Source: Bugulina stolonifera
Lineage: Eukaryota > Bryozoa > Gymnolaemata > Cheilostomatida > Bugulidae
NCBI GenBank assembly: GCA_935421135.1
Contig: OW285189.1
Span: forward strand, 16,823,072 to 16,887,071
Length of the DNA stretch: 64,000 nucleotides
Reading direction: 5' to 3'
A program made the position numbers and the translations under genes. The notes below the pieces were generated by a model. The model saw only the letters and a program-made list of their open reading frames with translations. It was not told the DNA's origin and ran no database searches. Shown here piece by piece: positions 19,829 to 58,269 of the stretch (position 1 is its first letter; every line of letters begins with the position of its first letter).

Positions 19829-22800
19829 ATGGGCACTATCAGAGCTCTTGCTCTATTAGCAGCACTCTTGGTATCATCTATAGCTGCTCAGGTAGGTCTA
19901 TGACTTTCTACACCATTACCATAGTCACGTAAGTTTACAGCGTAAGTTTACAGCGTATATAGTACATACTGTCCTTTTGAGTTGTAAGTTATACTAGCAT
20001 TCCAAACAACTAAATATCTAGTTTCAGTTTAGCCATAAAACTAACCAGTGCTGTCTGTTTTCAACTCTATCCTAAACATATTGCAGCCCTAAAAAATCAA
20101 CTAGCTCACTAATTCCAGCCCACTGGTCTCAATTCATAAAACTTGTTTTATTTTTTGAATGAAAGAGTCCATTGTTAGCCTTTAAGTGATGGCTCCAACT
20201 TCCCAAGATATTACTAACACTACTAAATTGAGAATATACTATTACAAAGGACATATTATGCTGTATGACCTTCTGTTTGACAGAGAAATGGAGATATTCT
20301 ATTAACAGAAGGATACAAGGGACTTCTAAAAGTTTTTTACAATGGCAGGTGAGGAGAAGGCTATTTGCCATATAATAGCTGTCTTTTCTATGTAGAACTA
20401 AAATACAGGAAATAACTTGAGAGAGGACAACTCCTTATGATAATTACTAACTAAACTATGACAGACAGTGTTGGCATAAGTGTTGCCTTCTAAAAATACC
20501 TGTAGCCTGTATTCATTAAGCAAAGGCAGGGAAAGTTTACAGTTCTTATTTAATAAAAAATAGTCTATAACAGCGAATCCAGCTGTGATACACCTGCCTA
20601 GTCAGACAGGAAGTTGTTTTTCTTTAGAGGAAATTGAATGTTTGGAACAGTAGAGATAATGGATGCCACTAGTATACATGCCCTGTTGACAATTACCTTT
20701 TTAAACATCAGCATAAGTATACGTGGAAAGATTCCAGTGCTGTAACAGATTGTTCGTCACACACTATTGTCTGTCACTTCTTTCAATTTTTTCTAAAATA
20801 AGCATAAACATAGACTGAAGGTGTTTTCTTGCTCCTAGAAGACAGGTGGGAAATTATTTGGTTCATACACACTACACTAGTGGTAATACCAGTGCAATCA
20901 TTCATATATAGTACTTTCCTAAAAAACAGTTGGGTTTTAGATATGGGTATGTATGTGATGACACAGCGTCGCCTGGTAGTGTAACAACCTTGGGCACTGT
21001 AGCTTGTAGAAATATCAACAGATCATTTGTTAACGCAGCTGCTGGTACTAAAGGCCCAACATCAAGTAAGTTGAACTTTAGAGTTACCCTTCCCTGCACA
21101 TATCTGTTATTTAATAGCAGAACTAAAATGAATTAGTTTTTTTAATTTCCAGAATCACACTATTGTATAAAATGTTTATTTTGGTCTAATCAACTTCTAA
21201 ATTTCAGGTGTGTGTTTTTACTACAATATAATTGACTAGCTAGTGGCTAACACTTAATGTTCTGAAATAATTTTCTTCATCAATAAGAAAACCAGACCAA
21301 ATATCATCACAATTACTTACAACTAGAAATAGATCATCTAAATGACATATGAACTCAGTGCAATGCAGACTAAGTGCAATGTAATGCGGGCTAAGTGAGT
21401 TAAAAAAATCTATACTTGATAGGGGTTTGACCAGCCACTATACATTAGACACTACATGTAGCCTGTGTGTTACAGGTTTCATGCTTGATGATACTGCTTG
21501 TGTTGGAACTGAGTCTAACTTGGATGAATGTAAACACAAGGCTTGGGGATCAGAAAATTGTGGAGCTAGCGAGCACATATACATAACGTGCACTGGTGAG
21601 TCAATATACTTACTTACATGGTGTGTTATACTTACTTACTTACTTACTTACTTACTAACACTGTGTGTAATAGGAGTAATAGCATAGGGTGATAAGATGA
21701 TAACATTTACCTGTATCCTAATTGAAACATGTAAATGTATGTAGTAGAGGTACGTGTATATGATGTACATCTTGGTGCCTCTACCACTAGGTATATGTAG
21801 TCCTGAGTGATACATGTTATGAACCAGAGCTTAGCATAAGAGTTCCATTTCAGATTTGCCCTGTGATGGAGGAAAGAGTAACTGCAGTCAGGTGTGCAAT
21901 AACAATGGGACCACAGGCTATTCATGCTCCTGCCATCCTGGATACAGCCTAAAGTCAGACAGGACCACCTGTAGAGGTAAATGTGATGGACACTGTATTA
22001 ATAAGAATTATTGACTGACTTTTAAAGATGCAGATATTTAATGGTTTTGATAATTTTAGTAGGTAAAAGTCTTGGTATGCAGTACCTACACAATAGTACT
22101 TGTATAATTTCTTCATCATTGCATCCCCCCACTTACAGTTATAGTTACAGGAAAAGGAAAGAAAGGACAACTATACAACATAATAAGCAATGCCTAATAT
22201 TTGAAGAGGTTTAGCGACTGATAATGTATGGCTATGTAACATACATATTATATTTTTTATATACCTATAGAAAATTCAAATATGTAAATATTATCTAATT
22301 CTAGATGTGAACGAGTGTCTGGTAAAGAACGGAGGTTGTTCTCACACCTGTGTTAACACTGTTGGATCACATTACTGTGAATGTCCACGTTATCTCTACC
22401 TTTCTGATGATAACTCAACATGTACAGGTACAGTACACTATACCGCATGTACTTCAGTACACTATACCGCATGTACTACAGTACATTATACCGCATGTAC
22501 TACAGTACACTATACCCCATGTACTACAGTACACTATACCACATGTACTACAGTACACCATACTACATGTACTACAGTACAGTACACCACATGTACTACA
22601 GTGCACTATACCACATGTACTACAGTACACTATACCCCATGTACTACAGTACACTATACCACATGTACTACAGTACACTATACCCCATGTACTACAGTAC
22701 ACCATACTACATGTACTACAGTACACTATACCCCATGTACTACAGTACACTATACCCCATGTACTACAGTACACCATACTACATGTACTACAGTACACAT

Positions 22801-25800
22801 ACCACCATACCACAGGTACAGTCATTGCACGGTCAAACATAACTATACAGCCATTTCCTTTAGCTGACGGATTTACAGTAGACTGCTCATCAACTGATAT
22901 GAAAATAACTATGGACAAAAAGACATTTTTCTTTCTTCCCGATTCGCTGACTTTACTCAATACAAGCTGTACTTCGACTTTCAACTCCACCCATGTATGG
23001 CTATACACAGACTACAACGCATGTTCTACTGGCAGAAAGGTAGATCTGAGAATTTTTTAAATGTATCACATTTCCTACTAAATTAACCTATATAATAACA
23101 TACAGTAGATACAAATTGCATGTATGCGATGAGTTAATAAGTGACCTGCTACTCACTTTAGATAGTGGATAATGAGATCATATACTCCAACGCTGTACTG
23201 GATTCCGAGACATCTACTGGAGGCATCAGATTCTTTGACTCCATCAAGATTCCATTCAAGTGCCGTCTCTCTGCTAACAGAACGATTAGCCAAGGTCTAA
23301 AACCGGTAGCCAATCAGCTGATCATGAGGGTGGACGGCAGAGGCAGTCTACCTGGAGTGTAAGATAAAATGAATAATATATAGATTGTATGCTGCAACAA
23401 TTTTAATACATCCCTCTCTACTTCTTATGTATTGTATACCAATTGATAAAATATTTGTTTTGTTGAAGGCTTGAGTTGCTCTCTGGTGACTCGGATGACA
23501 GCCCTCGCCTCTCTCCCTATTATATCAGGCAAGGGGAAGTGGTATATGCCAAACTGATTCCAAGTCTCAACGGTATAGTCACAGAGGCAGTTAATTGCAC
23601 AGCATCATCAATAGATGGGGCAGCATCCCAGAAGCTGATAACCAATAGGTGACAATATGATATTTACTCATAGTCGACTTATATACATGTACAGCATGCA
23701 TATACAGTAGGACTACAATGTACATTCTCAACCTGCCTCCCCACCCTTAGTCTGTAATTATTATCTAAGGAAAATAACATGAGAATTCCCATTCTCATCA
23801 GGTGGGCGATGATGATCACATTGTTGGCACTGCTATCATCAGAATGTACATGTTGAAATTACCCCAGTACTTACACTTCTACATACACTAATAATTAACT
23901 TGTACTTACATGAGGCAAATGTAAATAGTCCACTTTTTGAATCATGAATCAAGTACGATCGTGTTTCAGTCAAGCCACGAACTTCCTCACGACTCTGCTG
24001 CCGTCACGCTACTTCAGATTTAGCTACCCTGTGTTTACCTTTAATGAGAAGAATAAGACGGTAAACTTAAGCTGTGACTATGCTATCAGAACCAATCAGA
24101 GTCTAGAAAACAGTGTCAACCAAAGTCTCATCATTTCCTCACAGGAACGTGATGGTGAGATGCAATCAATAGCACGTTGACATTCATAAGCATAAAGTTA
24201 TTCCATGGTAGAGAAAAATGTTGCACATTAAGTTTCAGTGTCACTCTGCCCTCCATTATAAACTTTGCATGCATTTACCCAGTCGTCTTTCTCTAATTTA
24301 ATGTAACCATAGGAAAGTTATACGAAGTTGTCCTCTCCTATCTGGGAGAGGACAACTTCATAATATGGGTAAATTACTGTAGAACTCACTAAACTGTTTC
24401 AGGAGGAGAGAAAAGGGTTGTGGACACTAACTTCTGCTATGGACCGGAATACAGTCAGCAGGCAGAGATAACTGTAGCTAACAAGACAGTCAGTGTCTAC
24501 TGTGATGTGTCCACTCCTGGAGGGCCATGGATAACCATCCTACGACACACTAAGAACATAGGAGAGTTCAGTACTACTTTCTCAATATACGAGTCTGGAT
24601 TTGGAAATCCTAGTGACGACCATTTTATAGGTAAATTATTCACGATAATAATCTTATGTAATACTGACCAGCATGTGATCAGCTACATTAACCAATCACG
24701 GAAAATGACTAACCTGTGTCAGTAGATCACTCGTCAAATATTCAAAGCTAGTAACGCAATTTCCTACAAAAGGTTCAAGTACAATTAGAAGAGAGAAGAC
24801 AATTTCAAATTATACACAGATCAGTAGAGGTACAATTTTAGGGTTGCTACATTGATTTCTTAGGCCCACCTACACGAGAGGCGGAGCCTTGCTCTAGTGC
24901 AAACCAACATAACATTTGTTTGCCACGGAGCCCAGTTGTAATTAGCTAAATATCAGATACAACGAATCCAATTATAGAAAAATATCAAAAGTGAACTTTT
25001 GTTTTTGGCTGAACATTAGTTGGAGCAGCACCTACCTTAAGTAGTGAACAATGGAGCCTGCCTCTAGTATAGCTGTGCCTTTAGCAAATCACTTTAAGTC
25101 ACTCACAGAGCCAAATTTACATGCGCGTGTACAGCTTGGTCTGATATCACGTGACACATTTATAGGTTTGAAGACCCTCCATGAACTGACCGCTCGACAT
25201 AACATCACGCTAAGAGTTGACCTAGCGAGAAGAAATGGAGATGAACACGTATATGCAGAATACACCAACTTCAAAGTAGGCGACGCTAGCACATACTACA
25301 CTTTACAAGGTAGGATAAATCTTAAGTTCTATTTACTTGTACCACAGCTACATGAACAGCTATATCCTATATTATCATACTTTACCTCACATATGATTGA
25401 GCTATGGAGTAATATCTTACGACGTGTTGAATTTCTAGAACTCTCAGGCTACACAGGAACAGCTGGAGATTTAAAAGGAGTGGGTCCAACAGGTAACCCC
25501 ATCGGTATGAAGTTCAGCACCTATGATAGAGATAATGACCTGTTCTCCGGCAGTTGTGCAGGTAACGTGTTAGCGTCACAGTAGATCTCATACCTCTATA
25601 ACAAATACAGAGAGAGTCAGAGTAATTTAGGTGGAAGTGTAAGATATTGGTGCGCCAATATGCTAAACTGACTGCAACATACAATGTACATAAATGAGTT
25701 GCAGTATAACAGAGTATCACCATAATTATGAAAGTATAAATAAAATTAAGTTGGTGAACTGATAAGCACTTCCTCTCCCTTGGTACTATATCCCTGTACT

Positions 25801-33165: not shown

Positions 33166-36100
33166 ATGGAGGACAATTCCAAAGAAGATAACTCTACACG
33201 GTTGCCGCCATTAGCCACTGGAAGCATTGTCCAAACGCGACCTACACCAGCAGCATATATTTTGGAGCCTGTCCCAAAGGGAGATACTATGACCACATTA
33301 CGATCTAACAAGGATGGTAACTCAGGGCTTCAAACTTTGATACCACAACCCCCAACTGATCCAAAACCACCATCAAATGTGCCAATGCAGAGCCACAAAG
33401 ATATGGTTGTTGATAAGACAGAAAATAGGAGCATTGCAGAACTAACAATACACACTCAATCAGCTGCAAGTCAAATGGAGCCGAAAGACAAAAATGTTGA
33501 ACAAGAGTCAGAGCCACAGAAAGAAGTACAGCAATCCACAATCACTGAGCAACCATCCATAAAAAGGAAAGGAATTGATCAAAATAGTTTAGGTCCAACA
33601 GTTGAGGAACTACTTCCACCAGTCCTTGCCAAGATGTCTGCCGAAGAAAGAAAGCGCTGGTCTATAACAGATTCTGACGTTGAACAAGATATAGCAGTCG
33701 TTAAAATTGTGACTGAAACTCTGATCAATCATTCCTCCTCTTTATCGGACCATCCTCAGACATATTCTCAGTTGATCAGGTGCAGTACATAATGATGTCA
33801 TGTAATTGTGAACCTTTAGGAATTTTGCCCAGGTATTGACTAATCCTAATGGGCTATGTATCATTGACAGCTGTTGCAATCAAACACTTCATAGAACAAA
33901 GCGGTTCAGTTTTTGCTGCAACCTGTGGTAGGTAGGGATTCAATGTGGTATTAATATCTCAACGATTACCTGCACATATACTGTATGTTGCATGACACAT
34001 TTCAAGTTCAGTTGCTGTTTTCCAAACAGGATAGTGACAACTTTTCATATGCTAACCATGATATGAGCTACTTTGAGTTTTTAAATAAAAGCAAGGTTAC
34101 TCATTTATACCATATTTAAAAGGTCCACCCAACTTTAACATTGCAAGTCTTTACTGTTTAGATGTTTCACTAATTCTATCATTATCATTCTTAGAATTAT
34201 GCTTTGTAAAGAAAAATACATCTACATAGTGTAGATGTATTCTGGCAACAGTGAACAATGTATAAGTGAGTCGAGTAAAACTATGGAATTGCTACCATAT
34301 TTTGTAATACTTTTTCTTACAGGGTAGTTGTCAACTCTGTCATGTTCAGCCAGTGTTCTGCAAAGAACCGAGATAAAACAGTTCACACTTTGTTGAACAC
34401 AGGATGGTTGAGCTTGCTTGTAGCCCAGTTGCAGCAAATCTTTGACCAAGTTGGAACAATGTCCGATGGGTGGAAGAACAAAATTCTGAACTCTCATGTA
34501 TCAAATATCCTAATGGGCTTTGTGTCAATCGGTGTCGTCATCAAACGTTGCTCAGCTGAAGTTGTGCAAAACATTTCAAATGACGTAATTGATCTAGTGC
34601 TAAAACTACTAAATCATGCAGACATGCAGGAGGCTGCTTTAGCAGAAGATGCCAAGAGTCCACAAATGAAAATATTTAACTCCTTACTCTTTCTGTTGAG
34701 GGATACAGCATTGTTCCTTGCTAAAACTGATAAACAATTGGAGAGTGATACTGTGATCAAAATTGAAAGCATGCTGTGTGAGTGGCTGGGAACACTCAAA
34801 TCCCCATCTTTACGTTCTACTTGTGAAAGAATCCTGATGTACTTGGAAGATGATCAAACAATGAAAAGGCAGCCCTTAGCTTCTATACAGGGGGTCCATC
34901 CTACTGATGAGACTATAGATGAAATCATTGAACTGGCAATTAGTGTGGTGAAAAGGCTGAAGTCAGTTGACCTGGAGACTCATGTTTTCAAGCCATGGAG
35001 GTTTCATTTTGAGTTTGGGTAAGGAAGGCCTTATACATAATTGATTTTAAGTATTATAAGTGAATCTTAATACACAGCACATATTGTGATGACTTTCATT
35101 CATATACATTGAAAAATGAATTAAAACAATACGTTCTCAATACAGTCATGTCAATGACAAAAATACCATATGTTCTCCAATATGAGCAATCCTTCTTGCT
35201 TCCCAACAGCATGATGCATGTGGATCAATCATTGTTTGGTGACAACACAGAATTTTTGTCTAATGTTGAACATTCTAAATCCTACAAGCTGTTATGTTAC
35301 ATGAGTATGGATTTTATACTTGAACCATTTTTCAATTTTTCACTAGGTTCATGGTCATATTGGTATCAACAAGCACATACAAAAGATGCTCAGCAATGGC
35401 GCGTGAAAAAGTGTACAATGCGATGGTCAAGGATGGAAACTGGTATAGTTTCATCTCCAGCTTACTCTCCAGGGTTTTAGACGTCTACCAACAGAAAGAA
35501 GCTGAAAGCTTAGCATTGTCTGATCATGCAATGGCAAGTGCTTTAACAAATGTTTATTATGCCTTAACAACAGTTCACAATGGGACAGACTACTGCAGAG
35601 ATCTTGAAATTCAGCAACTAACATTTGATCTACTATCTGATGTATTGGTCAGGCAATTAAAAAATCCTACATTGCTAGATGTTCTTGCCGAGGCTCCCAG
35701 CGACTCTCGGGGCAGCAGCAAAATGCTGATGGTTGAAATTGGCGATGCACTGCTAAGTATCATCCACAATTTCACCTTCTATTTTGAGGCTTGTATTCCA
35801 ATTCTAAGAGAAAAAGCGATGACATCGGTGGCTAGGAAGGTGAGAGAAGTTGCGCAAACTTCTGATATAAGAACGTCATGCCTCTTGATTATCGCTTACC
35901 TTATTGACGAAGGTGACAACAAAGACATGATGAAGATAACAGATGGCGAACTTTCGTACCTGATAGAGGAAATAGGAAAGTCAATGGAGGAGGAGAGAAA
36001 CTCTGGCTACCACCCGGAAGAATTGATTGAAGGTTTAACAAGGATCGCCGTGATAGATCATAACAAACTTAAAGTTATAGATCAAGGTGCTCTTCCACAT

Positions 36101-39100
36101 TTAGTTAAATCTCTAAATGCTGAAAAATACAGTGCTGCTCATCAAACAGCAGCTGCCAGGGCAATATGGAACTTGGCTTTCACCGCTGAGAGTAGACAGA
36201 AGATTGTAGATGAAGAAGGTTGTATAGAGGGTGAGAAACATAAGTCATCTAATGAAAAAACCTAAAATGACATAATTATTCTAAAATTTGCAAATGTCTG
36301 CTTCATCAAAAATGACCATAATTCTTCCACAAGTATGAAATTTAGGCATTGTTTACAGCTCTCAATAAGCTAAAAGATTCCGATGACAAAAAGGTTAGAA
36401 ATGCTGTTGCTGGAGCTCTATGGCAAATTGAAGGAAAGCAGAAACACGTAGAAAACATTGAGCGTGAGGGAGTCGTGAACAATGGTAAACATTGCTTTAT
36501 TAGACCACTTTGGTAGGCCTACATTTTGCCTGTTGCCTTGCGTTACATAGGTTGATTATTTCCCCACACTAGCTTTGCTTCATACTGGTTGAAAAGTAGT
36601 CATGTTTTATTCTCAACTGCATAATGTGTGACATTGTAGGGCCTCATAAGCAGTAGATTCTTACAGTGAAAGACCATCATATTTATGAATAATTCATTGT
36701 AGAGACAAAACACATTATGCTAAGCTACAACAAGCAAGCCCGTGTAGATGTTCTCAAAATGAAGGACATACTGAAAAACAATGGCTATAAAGTATGGATA
36801 GATGTGGAGCAGATAACCGCCGGTATGATTTGTCTATGGTCTATAGTTTTAGGCCTAGGAAATTTTTCTTTACTAAGCGTATTTGTTACATGACACATTG
36901 CAGCAAGCCTCATATAATATATGTGTATAAGAGATGGTAATCTATAAAAGGGGTATACAGTGTGTACCCACCTCAATTTTAGGGGTTATATGGCCAACAG
37001 GCGTGTACCCTCATTTTAGTAGCTAGTTTTCCCCACACAGTGGCTGTGGACTTGATAGCCTAGTGGTAGAGTGCTTGACTCTCATACATGGGGTCTTGAT
37101 TTAAATCCCACCAGAGTCCAATTTTTTTTCATTTTAGTAATTCACTAATTTCTTAGCTACTATAGGATTAAGTGGATAGCTATTACAATACTAATCTGTA
37201 AGATTTCATGCACTGTGTACCCACCTCATTTGTTCCACTTCGAACACTGATGCAACTACTATACCATACCATGTCAATCCATAAAACAATGTGTTTATCA
37301 ATTGTGAAGGAAAAGGGCTATATGTAAGATAATAATCGGTCATCCCTTCAAAAGTCAACTGCAATAACATGTATAGTCCAATGAGCCTAGACCAAATAGA
37401 CCGGTAGTTTGTTCATACGAGAATCATTTCAGATACTATTGTGCATATAGAACTGTATAATAAGGTGCATAGAAGCCAGAAATTGGTGCCCATAAATTGT
37501 TGATTATAATATGATGTTGTACTCACTCAATATGTTGGCTCTCCCTAGAAAAAAAAAACTAGTAAACTAAATGAAAGAAGAAAACTTCACATTATAGTCA
37601 AAGCCTATGAGTAGGCCTACCTGTGTCACCGAGATAGTGACTTTATTGCCAAAACTATTACAGGTGGGTCCACATTAGAAGCAATGAGTACAGCAATAGA
37701 AGGCGCTTGCTTGGTTTTGATGTTCTTCAGCGAAGCATACAAGACCAGTGTCAATTGCCGGGCAGGTAAGAAGAAGAATGCTTTGGTTAATTTGTCTAAA
37801 TATTATATGACATGATTGGTATATCAAGTTGTTTTGGGGTATTCAACTATTACAATTATGTGTCCAGCTCGGTAGTAACAGGGACAAAGTGTATGTAGGC
37901 AGAATTTCAGTCAGCCTGTGCGGGCATGACCCAATACTAGGCTATGCGAGGCGCGGGGCTGATGCTTCCGCAAAGTGCAGCAGGAGTGACAACTATAGGA
38001 GTGCTTGTATACTAACTGTTAGCAGTAAACAGTAGAGGATCACAGGTTTAAGATTAGAGTGTTCATTATGTAGCAGTCAACAGGCAACTGAATCATAATG
38101 CGAAAGTATGGTGCTTATATATGAAAAATAAACATTTCCAGGTCAAGAGGCTAATTAACACCCTAACTCATACCCGGACTCTAAAAGGGTCCAAGTCAAA
38201 ATAATAAGAAATTGGCCTTGGTGCACCAAGCAGAATTACAGCACAACAATACACAAAGAAGGCAGTTGTGTTGTCAGTGAAACGTTACCATAGTACGGTA
38301 TAAGTAAACTAATACCTGTACATGTAAGCAGTACATGTATGCAAAAGTAGGCATATATAAAAAATATACTCAATCTGCAAATAGTGTACTGTTTCGGTGT
38401 TTGACACCTCATCAGTGCAGCTCAGAGTTATACCTAGGAGCACACCTTAGCAATACTGTGTATTTACAGCAAAGCGTATCTAAAAGATGTGAAATTCACT
38501 GAACCAAAGTTTTCAGGCTGCTAGAGACTGTAAAGAATTGCGTAAAGCTACCAGTTCAGTGTATCTCCCAGGTAGAGCGCTCAAGAAATTGGTATCGCTA
38601 CCAATTCCGAGTGGAATACTCAATCTGCATACAGTGCACTGCTTCAGCGTTTTACACCTCATCAGTGCATAATACACTGTATAAGAAGGCACAATGATAC
38701 ATTCACATGCACTGTTAATAATACAGGTCAGTAACTCAATGTCATAATAGAACTGTCACCAGGACCGCGTCTTGGCGCATATACTGGCGGGTGCACGGAA
38801 GTGCTGGCACCAGAAAGCCTCAGCACGTTACAATAACTCATTATTTTCAACAGCAAAACTATTGCAGCTTAATCGGTTTGTGAGATTGTAGGTCTGTCTA
38901 ACTAAGCTTTATCCGTTTCACGACGCTCACACGTAGTTTGCTATTTGAAATAGTAGGGGGGGGGGGCTAAAATAAGTGTTTGAATCATACTGGCTCTATC
39001 CAAAATAACATTCCGTAGCCTGAGGTAACTGGGACTCTAACTAGTATGATGACATGACTACGGGCTAGTACCTCAGTTTAATGCTACTTTGGATAGGCCC

Positions 39101-40182
39101 AGTATAAATATATAAGTTAGCCAATGGTTACCTGATTTTCTCGTAACATTTTAGAGGCCGAGTATGTGTTTGAACAGAGAAAGCCTTTTATACCCATACA
39201 AGTTCAGCCCAAGTATGTACCAAACGGATGGCTCGGCATATTAATAGGCAGCAAATACAGATATTCACTCATTAAACCAGAGATATACGATTCAGAAATA
39301 GCGACGCTGTTGGCAAAGATTGCAGAAATGGTTACTGGCAACACTACCCCTGCAATGGATGTACCAGGTATGTCTATTTCTATTTGGAATGTACATTCGC
39401 GCGCATGCACGAGCACAGACGCACCACCTCACACAGTTTTATGAATTATATTTAGCTTTATAATTTTGCTCTAACAGAATAGAAAATATATTAAGCGTAT
39501 GTTGTAATTAAGACAGCGAATTTAGTAGTTGCGATAAGTATACAATGCAATTGTAGGTGTAGGGTAATAAAATCATATTTAGGTATTCATCATATTGTAA
39601 TAAACCTGTTTGTAGGCATTATGTATAGGATATATTATTTTATGACAAAACCTCGAACAGTTAGACTTAGTGAATATAATATGGTAGCAATTTGGTAGCA
39701 ATACCATATTGATCACACCAGCATCACACTGTTCAACATATAAGCCTAATAATGCTCTGCATCCTTGTAGATGCACCTTTTATAGCTAAAAGCTATGCAC
39801 CACCTCTGCTAAGTGCTACTCCATCTGTAGCACAACCGAAGCTAGAGTGTTCGGACTGGACCTCTCAACAAGTTATTGACTGGTTAGACTCTACAGACCT
39901 CTCATGCTTCAAAGAAAGGTATGGAATTGTACTTATTATTGCAGTCAATCACACACAAACAAATCATTGACTCTCTTACTTCAGTACAGTATTTGTAATC
40001 AAATTTTCTAATTTACTCATATATTTACATTTAGTTTGAAAAACATGACGGGAGAGATGTTGGCAGAGTTGGCCATTCTCTCACAGCATCACAAGGATAC
40101 TTTCTATTCCATGATTGGACACATGAAAGGAGTTGATCTCTCCGACTTTCTACGGTTTGCCTGTGCTGCCTCCAAACTCTAA
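33166..40182 (+). CDS. ARM/HEAT-like, TIR, SAM multidomain protein
   Basis: Nine exons in consistent phase encode about 1016 residues: 33166-33779, 34323-35018, 35347-36230, 36359-36484, 36703-36822, 37664-37765, 39155-39367, 39771-39918 and 40035-40182. Residues 1-150 are polar and probably disordered. About 170-770 is an all-helical region that looks like armadillo/HEAT repeats, clearest near the end (AAHQTAAARAIWNLAF and NAVAGALWQIEG). Residues 774-918 form a TIR domain: HIMLSYN, GYKVWIDVEQI, LVLMFFSEAYKTS and NCRAEAEYVF. The CxxE in NCRAE matches the catalytic glutamate position of NAD-cleaving TIR domains. Residues 945-1012 form a SAM domain (WTSQQVIDWLDS, LKNMTGEML). SARM1 has the same kinds of domain in a different order (ARM, SAM, SAM, TIR). 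NADase activity and oligomerisation through SAM are inference. Confidence 0.92.
37048..37119 (+). repeat. tRNA-like sequence in an intron of the TIR gene
   Basis: GGACTTGATAGCCTAGTGG...CCACCAGAGTCC has a tRNA-like acceptor stem (six of seven pairs), a D-arm/A-box (TAGCCTAGTGGTAGAGTG) and a B-box-like GATTTAAATCC. The anticodon stem does not pair, so it is probably a SINE head or tRNA pseudogene. A T-rich stretch follows. Confidence 0.55.
38375..38420 (-). ncRNA. Hammerhead ribozyme, type I, copy 1
   Basis: Reading the minus strand: CTGCA, the core CTGATGA, helix II GGTGT-CAA-ACACC (five perfect pairs), GAA, helix III ACAGT-AC-ACTAT (one mismatch), T at the cleavage position, then TGCAG. TGCAG pairs with the initial CTGCA as helix I. 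All invariant core bases are present. Predicted cleavage lies between plus positions 38380 and 38379. The very short helix III is typical of hammerheads linked to Penelope-like elements and animal retrozymes. Confidence 0.8.
38625..38669 (-). ncRNA. Hammerhead ribozyme, type I, copy 2
   Basis: This lies exactly 250 bp from copy 1 in the same orientation. Core CTGATGA, helix II GGTGT-AAA-ACGCT (pairs with two wobbles), GAA, helix III GCAGT-GC-ACTGT (closed by a G-U), A at the cleavage position, then TGCAG pairing with TGCA upstream of the core. The sequence changes relative to copy 1 largely keep the stems, but A15.1 is replaced by G, so activity may be lower. Confidence 0.75.
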
Positions 40183-56765: not shown

Positions 56766-57253
56766 GTGATAGGACCAGCACAAGCTAGCGCTATTCATAC
56801 ACAATGACATTACACTACTGTATGCCATTGCTTCGTTACAGTGTAAGCTAGACTGCATCTGCAGGGCGTAAGTATATATCATACAGCCATACCTAGACTT
56901 GTCTCCACCATGTTTCTGAATACTTGACAGAATTGGAGAAGTTTGACACATCGCATTTTTAATTAGTTATTAAGTAGCCCTCTCAACATGATTGCCTACT
57001 TTCCATATCCAACCACTAACATCTAGGTCATCAAAATTTCCTTGCAGCTGAACAGCCATACTTCATCATAGTCTAAAGCCAAGCAATAAGTTATTGGATT
57101 GTAAGGTAAATGTATATACACGTAGATACATGTACATGTATATACACCATGATTGTAAAAGTTTGAATTTAGCTTATTGTTAGCCTTGTGTGCTACCGGA
57201 GGCGGATATTGCAATTTACACTATATTGTGCTTGTGATGCAGCGAATCATGCA

Positions 57254-57535
57254 CATAATATACGTGCACCTACTTACACTTGTACTTACACTTACATGTA
57301 CATAATATACGTGCACCTACTGACACTTGTACTTACACTTACATGTACATAATATACGTGCACCTACTTACACTTGTACTTACACTTACAGGTACATAAT
57401 ATATGTACACCTACTTACACTTGTACTTACACTTACATGTACATAATATACGTGCACCTACTTACACTTGTACTTACACTTACAGGTACATAATATACGT
57501 GCACCTACTTACACTTGTACTTACACTTACAGGTA
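57254..57535. repeat. 47-bp minisatellite, six units
   Basis: Six near-identical units starting CATAATATACGTGCACCTAC, with ACACTTGTACTTACACTTAC as the second half. Differences are single bases. Confidence 0.92.
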
Positions 57536-58269
57536 CATCTACACCTACATGTACATATTATAACAACATGTATGTATTAAACTCATATTGTAACTAACTA
57601 CATTTTTTACTTCTAATTGGCCGACTCCATACTGAATTATGATTTTGAAATGTTGTACCTTTGCTGTTACAAACGTCTCCCCTTCCCCCACCTCTCCTTC
57701 CCCTCCCCCCTCCCCCCCCGCCTTAATGCACTGATCTTATGTTGCCCTCCCTCCCTGTCATTTGCTGTAGCATAATCTTCTATCTACACAGTATTAGTGT
57801 GTGCTGCTTCCAATGATACTTCAGGTCAGATATTTTCTAAATAGCTCAAGTAGTGGCCATTATTGTAGACTAATGACCCATCAGTCCTTTAGACGCAGAA
57901 CTGAACCTGTTTTGTACAAAACGCACTGCATTTTCTGTAATGGGTCGGTTTGAATTTGCAGTCTAAATAAGTAACATCTATCTGTTATAAGCCTACTCAT
58001 GGTGATCCCAGTGGAACTTAACACCCGAAGCAACTAGTGTAGTGGTTCGTTGAACATGGAGAAGGATAGGTCCTAGGCATGTACATGTACATGACTGTGA
58101 CTACATAATAGCACATGTTGAAGCTTTTGATCGGTTGTATTAGTGATACCCATAGACTGTTCTGGTAGTCTAGGGTTGTTGATCGGCCTCTGGCTGTGTT
58201 TGTTCAGCAGGTAATGTTAATGTATGTGGTGTGTCAGCAGTGCATTACATGCAGACTTTACAATAATAT

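Follow-up and report, generated by a model that had tools for sequence, protein, structure and literature searches.

Non-LTR retrozymes and RNA circles are known from animals, and for these elements a multi-unit cDNA made from a primed circle has been proposed, with Penelope elements named as strong candidates (PMC7229834). According to a 2020 review, the helper enzyme is revealed by no motif, and the copying enzyme of animal retrozymes as well as the role of the circle as template are left open there (PMC7761336). From the lizard Anolis, a Penelope protein is described that has an internal start, cuts AT-rich DNA and uses both strands; for the same protein, the ribozyme is dispensable in vitro and uncut RNA serves as template (PMC11167929). 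In rotifers, Penelope-like elements are reported to have inverted pseudo-LTRs and target site duplications (TSDs) of 8–10 bp (PMC3846280). A literature search for Bryozoa together with hammerhead ribozyme found no open-licence paper. In the genome of the bryozoan Bugulina stolonifera, the insertion ends of a young repeat family look as if RNA circles had been copied in a target-primed manner, with self-cleavage, circularization and a helper enzyme being presumed steps. Both questions left by the review become directly testable here, since a single long-read assembly contains hundreds of young copies of the motif together with Penelope elements of similar layout.

The window, that is the whole stretch of 64,000 nucleotides analysed here, bears on its minus strand a 304-bp insertion corresponding to 1.22 units of a 249-nt repeat (Table 1). 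Like the metazoan non-LTR retrozymes described in PMC7229834, the family shows tandem units within the range of 150–450 bp, a type I hammerhead, low GC content and no apparent LTR, as well as a predicted self-paired circle and the presence of Penelope elements in the same genome, while the bryozoan host and the limit of 4.7 units in our sample differ from the coral arrays of up to 62-mers in that description. The type I assignment was made from the sequence and a pair check, GC content of the family unit is 42.6% and thus below 50%, and a long coding frame is not present when the unit is read as a circle, the longest stop-free runs being 61 aa in sense and 82 aa in antisense direction. The first-pass annotation proposed a small, non-autonomous unit akin to retrozymes, and this is supported. 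Aligned with the family unit over 304 columns, the window copy deviates at 31, including 23 transitions, and hence it is old; a TSD of at least 9 nt was not found at its borders. The window element is an old, decaying insertion of the B. stolonifera non-LTR retrozyme, and evidence for mobility rests with its younger relatives.

Table 1. Features of the retrozyme insertion and of the surrounding host gene in the window.
Feature	Position	Strand	Remark
Retrozyme insertion	38366..38669	(-)	1.22 units; ends by BLAST and family-unit alignment
RNA 5' end of insertion	38669		unit position 1
RNA 3' end of insertion	38366		unit position 54
Complete repeat unit	38420..38669	(-)	250 nt in window copy, 249 in family
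Upper hammerhead motif	38626..38669	(-)	every pair possible, three as wobbles; triplet GUA
Predicted cut, upper motif	between 38630 and 38629		after GUA
Lower hammerhead motif	38376..38419	(-)	C-A mismatch at one helix III pair; triplet AUU
Predicted cut, lower motif	between 38380 and 38379		
3' border, unit positions 45–54, GATTGAGTAT	38366..38375	(-)	putative reverse-transcription start
AT-rich flank adjoining 3' border	38340..38365	(+)	from sequence
ARM frame upstream of TIR	35324..36262	(+)	PF00514
First TIR frame	36693..36893	(+)	
Frame with TIR piece before insertion	37615..37815	(+)	host gene; exon borders putative
Frame with TIR piece after insertion	39136..39444	(+)	host gene; exon borders putative

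In an ARM-TIR gene, the insertion occupies a predicted intron, where it has antisense orientation and separates the last two TIR pieces. This agrees with the antisense intron position given in the first-pass annotation, as the putative exon pieces flanking the insertion, when plus-strand frames are joined by hand, yield a TIR domain (PF13676, E 2.4e-18). The host gene as a whole (window positions 35324–39970, plus strand) combines ARM (PF00514), TIR (PF13676) and a weak SAM_2 match below the cut-off, which are the domains of SARM1 in a different order. Elsewhere in the window there are two minisatellites, at 22429–22805 (24-bp units, 15.8 copies) and at 57248–57538 (47-bp units, 6.2 copies).

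The two hammerhead motifs of the window reside in 54-nt copies that are 250 bp apart and 87% identical. On the minus strand, their elements follow each other as helix I TGCA, CTGATGA, helix II, GAA, helix III hairpin, NUH and again TGCA, and this predicted strand order is that of a type I hammerhead. Cut positions were predicted by the general hammerhead rule. Pairable helices had been claimed for both copies, each with CTGATGA and GAA; this holds for the upper copy but fails at one helix III pair of the lower copy. Likewise, differences between the copies were said to fall largely at paired positions that stay paired. Actually, among the 7 differing positions 4 are paired and 3 unpaired, and from the former 3 still pair only as G-U wobbles whereas 1 breaks the pair by placing a C opposite A in the lower copy. 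None of these changes is compensatory, and covariation of the two copies was discarded as an argument. The very short helix III also assumed does not apply: in the family, this helix comprises 4 bp and its loop 4 nt. The covariance check suggested at first pass gave no match at threshold, which counts against the reading preferred below: the Rfam scan of the window gave no hammerhead at gathering score, a scan of 1.6 kb nothing at E up to 1, and a scan of 441 bases as sole hammerhead match one of 14.7 bits, against a cut-off of 48.5, in the lower copy only.

Support for two real tandem motifs comes, besides the 54-nt copies themselves, from the assembly (234,951,659 bases in 27 contigs). When up to 3 mismatches are allowed, a 50-nt pattern of the family motif occurs at 432 places, compared to 0 for the reversed control, so the motif is not a product of chance; for viral contigs scanned for the motif, the count was 0. 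With the 304-bp stretch as query, at least 81 further genome matches were obtained, 40 of the 743 candidates having been scored. By merging the loci of both searches to 45 stretches and adding 53 more, a sample of 98 stretches with 105 arrays was assembled, which leans to young copies because exact matches are placed first among the matches; accordingly, most of the sampled young copies are about 99% identical to the family unit. The further tandem units expected in the genome do exist as dispersed arrays, the longest of the 105 having 4.68 units. When 8 motifs were aligned (one young, two from the window and five distant relatives), core and GAA proved identical in all of them, with variation in the loops and never a G before the cut. 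Three of the five distant relatives (L132, L134 and L135) have changes in the 5' strand of helix I and have lost this helix, which counts against the reading preferred below.

The two borders of the arrays are unequal. The 3' end is at unit position 51–58 in 100 of the 105 arrays (at 54 in 71 of them), that is 11–18 nt beyond the predicted cut after unit position 40, and the remaining five leave the fetched stretch; as the search pattern ends at unit position 54, 3' ends before 51 could escape, while ends at 59–249 are detectable. In contrast, the 5' ends are found all round the unit, with array lengths from 0.12 units, in an array cut by its stretch, up to the maximum given above. A fixed 3' border combined with a variable 5' border argues against LTR borders. 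Plant LTR retrozymes share with the family the non-coding nature, the bounding hammerheads and, presumably, a circular RNA stage, but are described as having type III hammerheads, LTRs, a primer-binding site, about 700 bp and 4-bp TSDs (PMC7229834, PMC7761336). Whole laps were assessed with the 96 arrays having both flanks, leaving out the window locus and the segmental duplicate C10_251334. In this set, 18 arrays have their 5' end at unit position 44–58, the zone in which a lap from the putative start point would close, versus 5.8 expected; away from this zone, the highest count in a 15-nt window is 11, or 9 if its AT content has to be equally high. A value of 18 in any 15-nt window was obtained in 11 of 5000 uniform simulations and in 0 of 2000 when chance flank matches were simulated. 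The lengths of the 18 arrays are 1.00–1.04 (12 arrays), 1.99–2.04 (5 arrays) and 4.01 units (1 array).

The targets are TA-rich, with an AT content of 77–78% in the flanks of the 96 arrays versus 63% for the window. TSDs of more than 4 bp, as in metazoan retrozymes, are indicated by a mean of 8.9 nt in 97 arrays, window included, versus 5.1 nt (sd 0.21) when 5' and 3' flanks were re-paired in 200 permutations; 42% of the TSDs have at least 10 nt versus 8% after permutation (maximum of 19% in one permutation). Single TSDs are nevertheless uncertain due to the low complexity of the targets. Many TSDs begin at the TAT of unit positions 52–54, which suggests that the nicked target strand anneals there. 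Variation within arrays was counted after removal of the window locus, the duplicate and five arrays below 97% identity. At sites occurring two or more times in an array, 20 variants are common to all of its copies and 41 are not. Rare variants that recur in every unit of an array would be expected if a single monomer was copied repeatedly, while the 41 unshared differences fit copying errors or later mutation, or else argue against strict copying from one circle. The predicted fold of the circular unit has –83.1 kcal/mol versus –55.6 (sd 4.7) for 100 shuffles, and forcing the hammerhead into it costs 0.5 kcal/mol.

The comparison of borders and targets in the genome covered the Penelope-like elements, too. 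They carry hammerheads at the 3' side, their 3' ends are fixed, their copies are truncated at the 5' side and flanked by AT-rich DNA, and head-to-head pairs are also present. Their insertion style is similar to that of the retrozyme, and the association with Penelope elements made at first pass is substantiated by such hammerhead-bearing elements in the same genome. As to the statement that a reverse transcriptase is not nearby, none of the 49 genome matches to one Penelope RT query is within the window. A homologue of the Penelope RT is telomerase-like in fold, and the putative endonuclease is named after its GIY-YIG-like motif. Pfam searches gave no domain in two Penelope pieces and none above cut-off in three homologues, and a sequence search among solved structures gave no relative, with matches at E 0.37 or worse. 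An identity of the retrozyme as Penelope-like element was rejected, as the frame for telomerase-like RT and GIY-YIG is absent and the unit lacks a long frame. The family agrees with minimal-hammerhead Penelope-like elements in placing a type I hammerhead close to the 3' end, in inserting at AT-rich targets with TSDs and in having inverted copies, but these elements are described as encoding RT and endonuclease and as having a 2-bp helix III instead of 4 bp (PMC7761336, PMC3846280). Resemblance extends to Poseidon of Anolis carolinensis by the fixed internal RNA start beyond the hammerhead, which is presumed for the retrozyme, by AT-rich cutting and by the use of both strands. In the description of Poseidon, however, the start is about 85–92 nt past the cut (cut at 26 nt and start at 111–118 nt after the start codon) versus a predicted 11–14 nt in the retrozyme, no circle is used, and start site and target lack homology, while target and RNA of the retrozyme often share TAT (PMC11167929). 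This last contrast and the acceptance of uncut RNA in vitro count against a Penelope-type origin of the insertions, as do two observations on the genome: similarity in sequence of the unit to Penelope 3' ends is limited to matches of 10–12 nt, and only 1 head-to-head retrozyme pair is found in the 98 stretches.

As separate observations, two RT pieces of a second Penelope family, both 60% identical to the query, are arranged head to head 8 bp apart as a near-palindrome (G000:C7:5400908-5402253). At locus L134 (G000:C5:11853670-11854120), no more than about 50 bp of TA-rich DNA separates an old retrozyme copy from an apparent 3' end of the first Penelope family, which has the opposite orientation, and both elements seem to have used the same spot. 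The COX1 of the mitochondrial contig C27 is bryozoan, its best named hit being that of Bugula neritina with 87% identity. Besides this gene, contigs C12 and C26 have COX1-like genes with TGA codons, possibly from mitochondria of other organisms in the assembly.

Taken together, the family is probably a metazoan non-LTR retrozyme whose RNA circle is copied by target-primed reverse transcription of the Penelope type, with ribozyme cleavage, circle and helper being presumed parts of this assignment. By analogy with known animal retrozymes, the hammerheads would cut transcripts of tandem units to 249-nt monomers, which would then be closed to circles. A Penelope-like protein, the putative enzyme, would nick TA-rich DNA, and reverse transcription would start at one internal point of the circle, around unit position 51–54 and hence 11–14 nt beyond the cut. 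The polymerase would travel round the circle and might stop anywhere, so that the inserts observed span less than one and up to 4.7 laps and whole laps are over-represented, and TSDs, which are supported statistically, would arise afterwards. With a slight preference only, we go further and regard each insertion as the fossil of one rolling-circle target-primed event by a Penelope enzyme, in which the 3' border marks the single start point, the length gives the number of laps, and stops accumulate at the point where a lap meets its own cDNA. If true, Penelope enzymes would accept circular RNA, and animal retrozymes would live as parasites on Penelope elements, mimicking the layout of hammerhead plus start site of the latter.

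An unlikely alternative, though the best of the rivals, dispenses with the circle: a linear multimeric transcript starting near unit position 50 would be reverse-transcribed from 51–54. Such a transcription start would yield whole-unit lengths as well, and the acceptance of uncut RNA by the Penelope protein in vitro (PMC11167929) is in its favor. However, the 18 5' ends at the lap-closing zone are not sharp but spread across 15 nt, the hammerheads of the young copies sampled seem intact, so that tandem transcripts should be cut by them, and the shared rare variants indicate one copied monomer, albeit tandem DNA amplification could produce these likewise. Still less probable is copying of the same retrozyme by another retrotransposon, for example, a LINE. 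Since 5' truncation, TSDs and microhomology are frequent in LINE insertions, these features of the arrays would be typical of LINEs, too, but the fixed internal start beyond the hammerhead and the AT-rich targets resemble the Penelope elements of this very genome. Ordinary satellite DNA, or chance hammerhead look-alikes without function, would be in line with the lack of an Rfam match at threshold but is hardly credible given the 432 places versus 0 in the control, the short dispersed arrays with fixed 3' border and the invariant core with variable loops and never G before the cut; long homogeneous arrays of the satellite type are lacking among the 105 sampled.

A minor observation concerns unit position 228, which is G in the window copy and hypervariable in the family, with 17 of 88 arrays differing from T (13 G, 3 C and 1 A). 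Other sites of the unit vary by 0.48% on average, and the next highest value is 8 of 92. Position 228 is mixed within 3 arrays, and old relatives also have G or T, so it may represent either a long-lived polymorphism or a modified base in the RNA that is misread.
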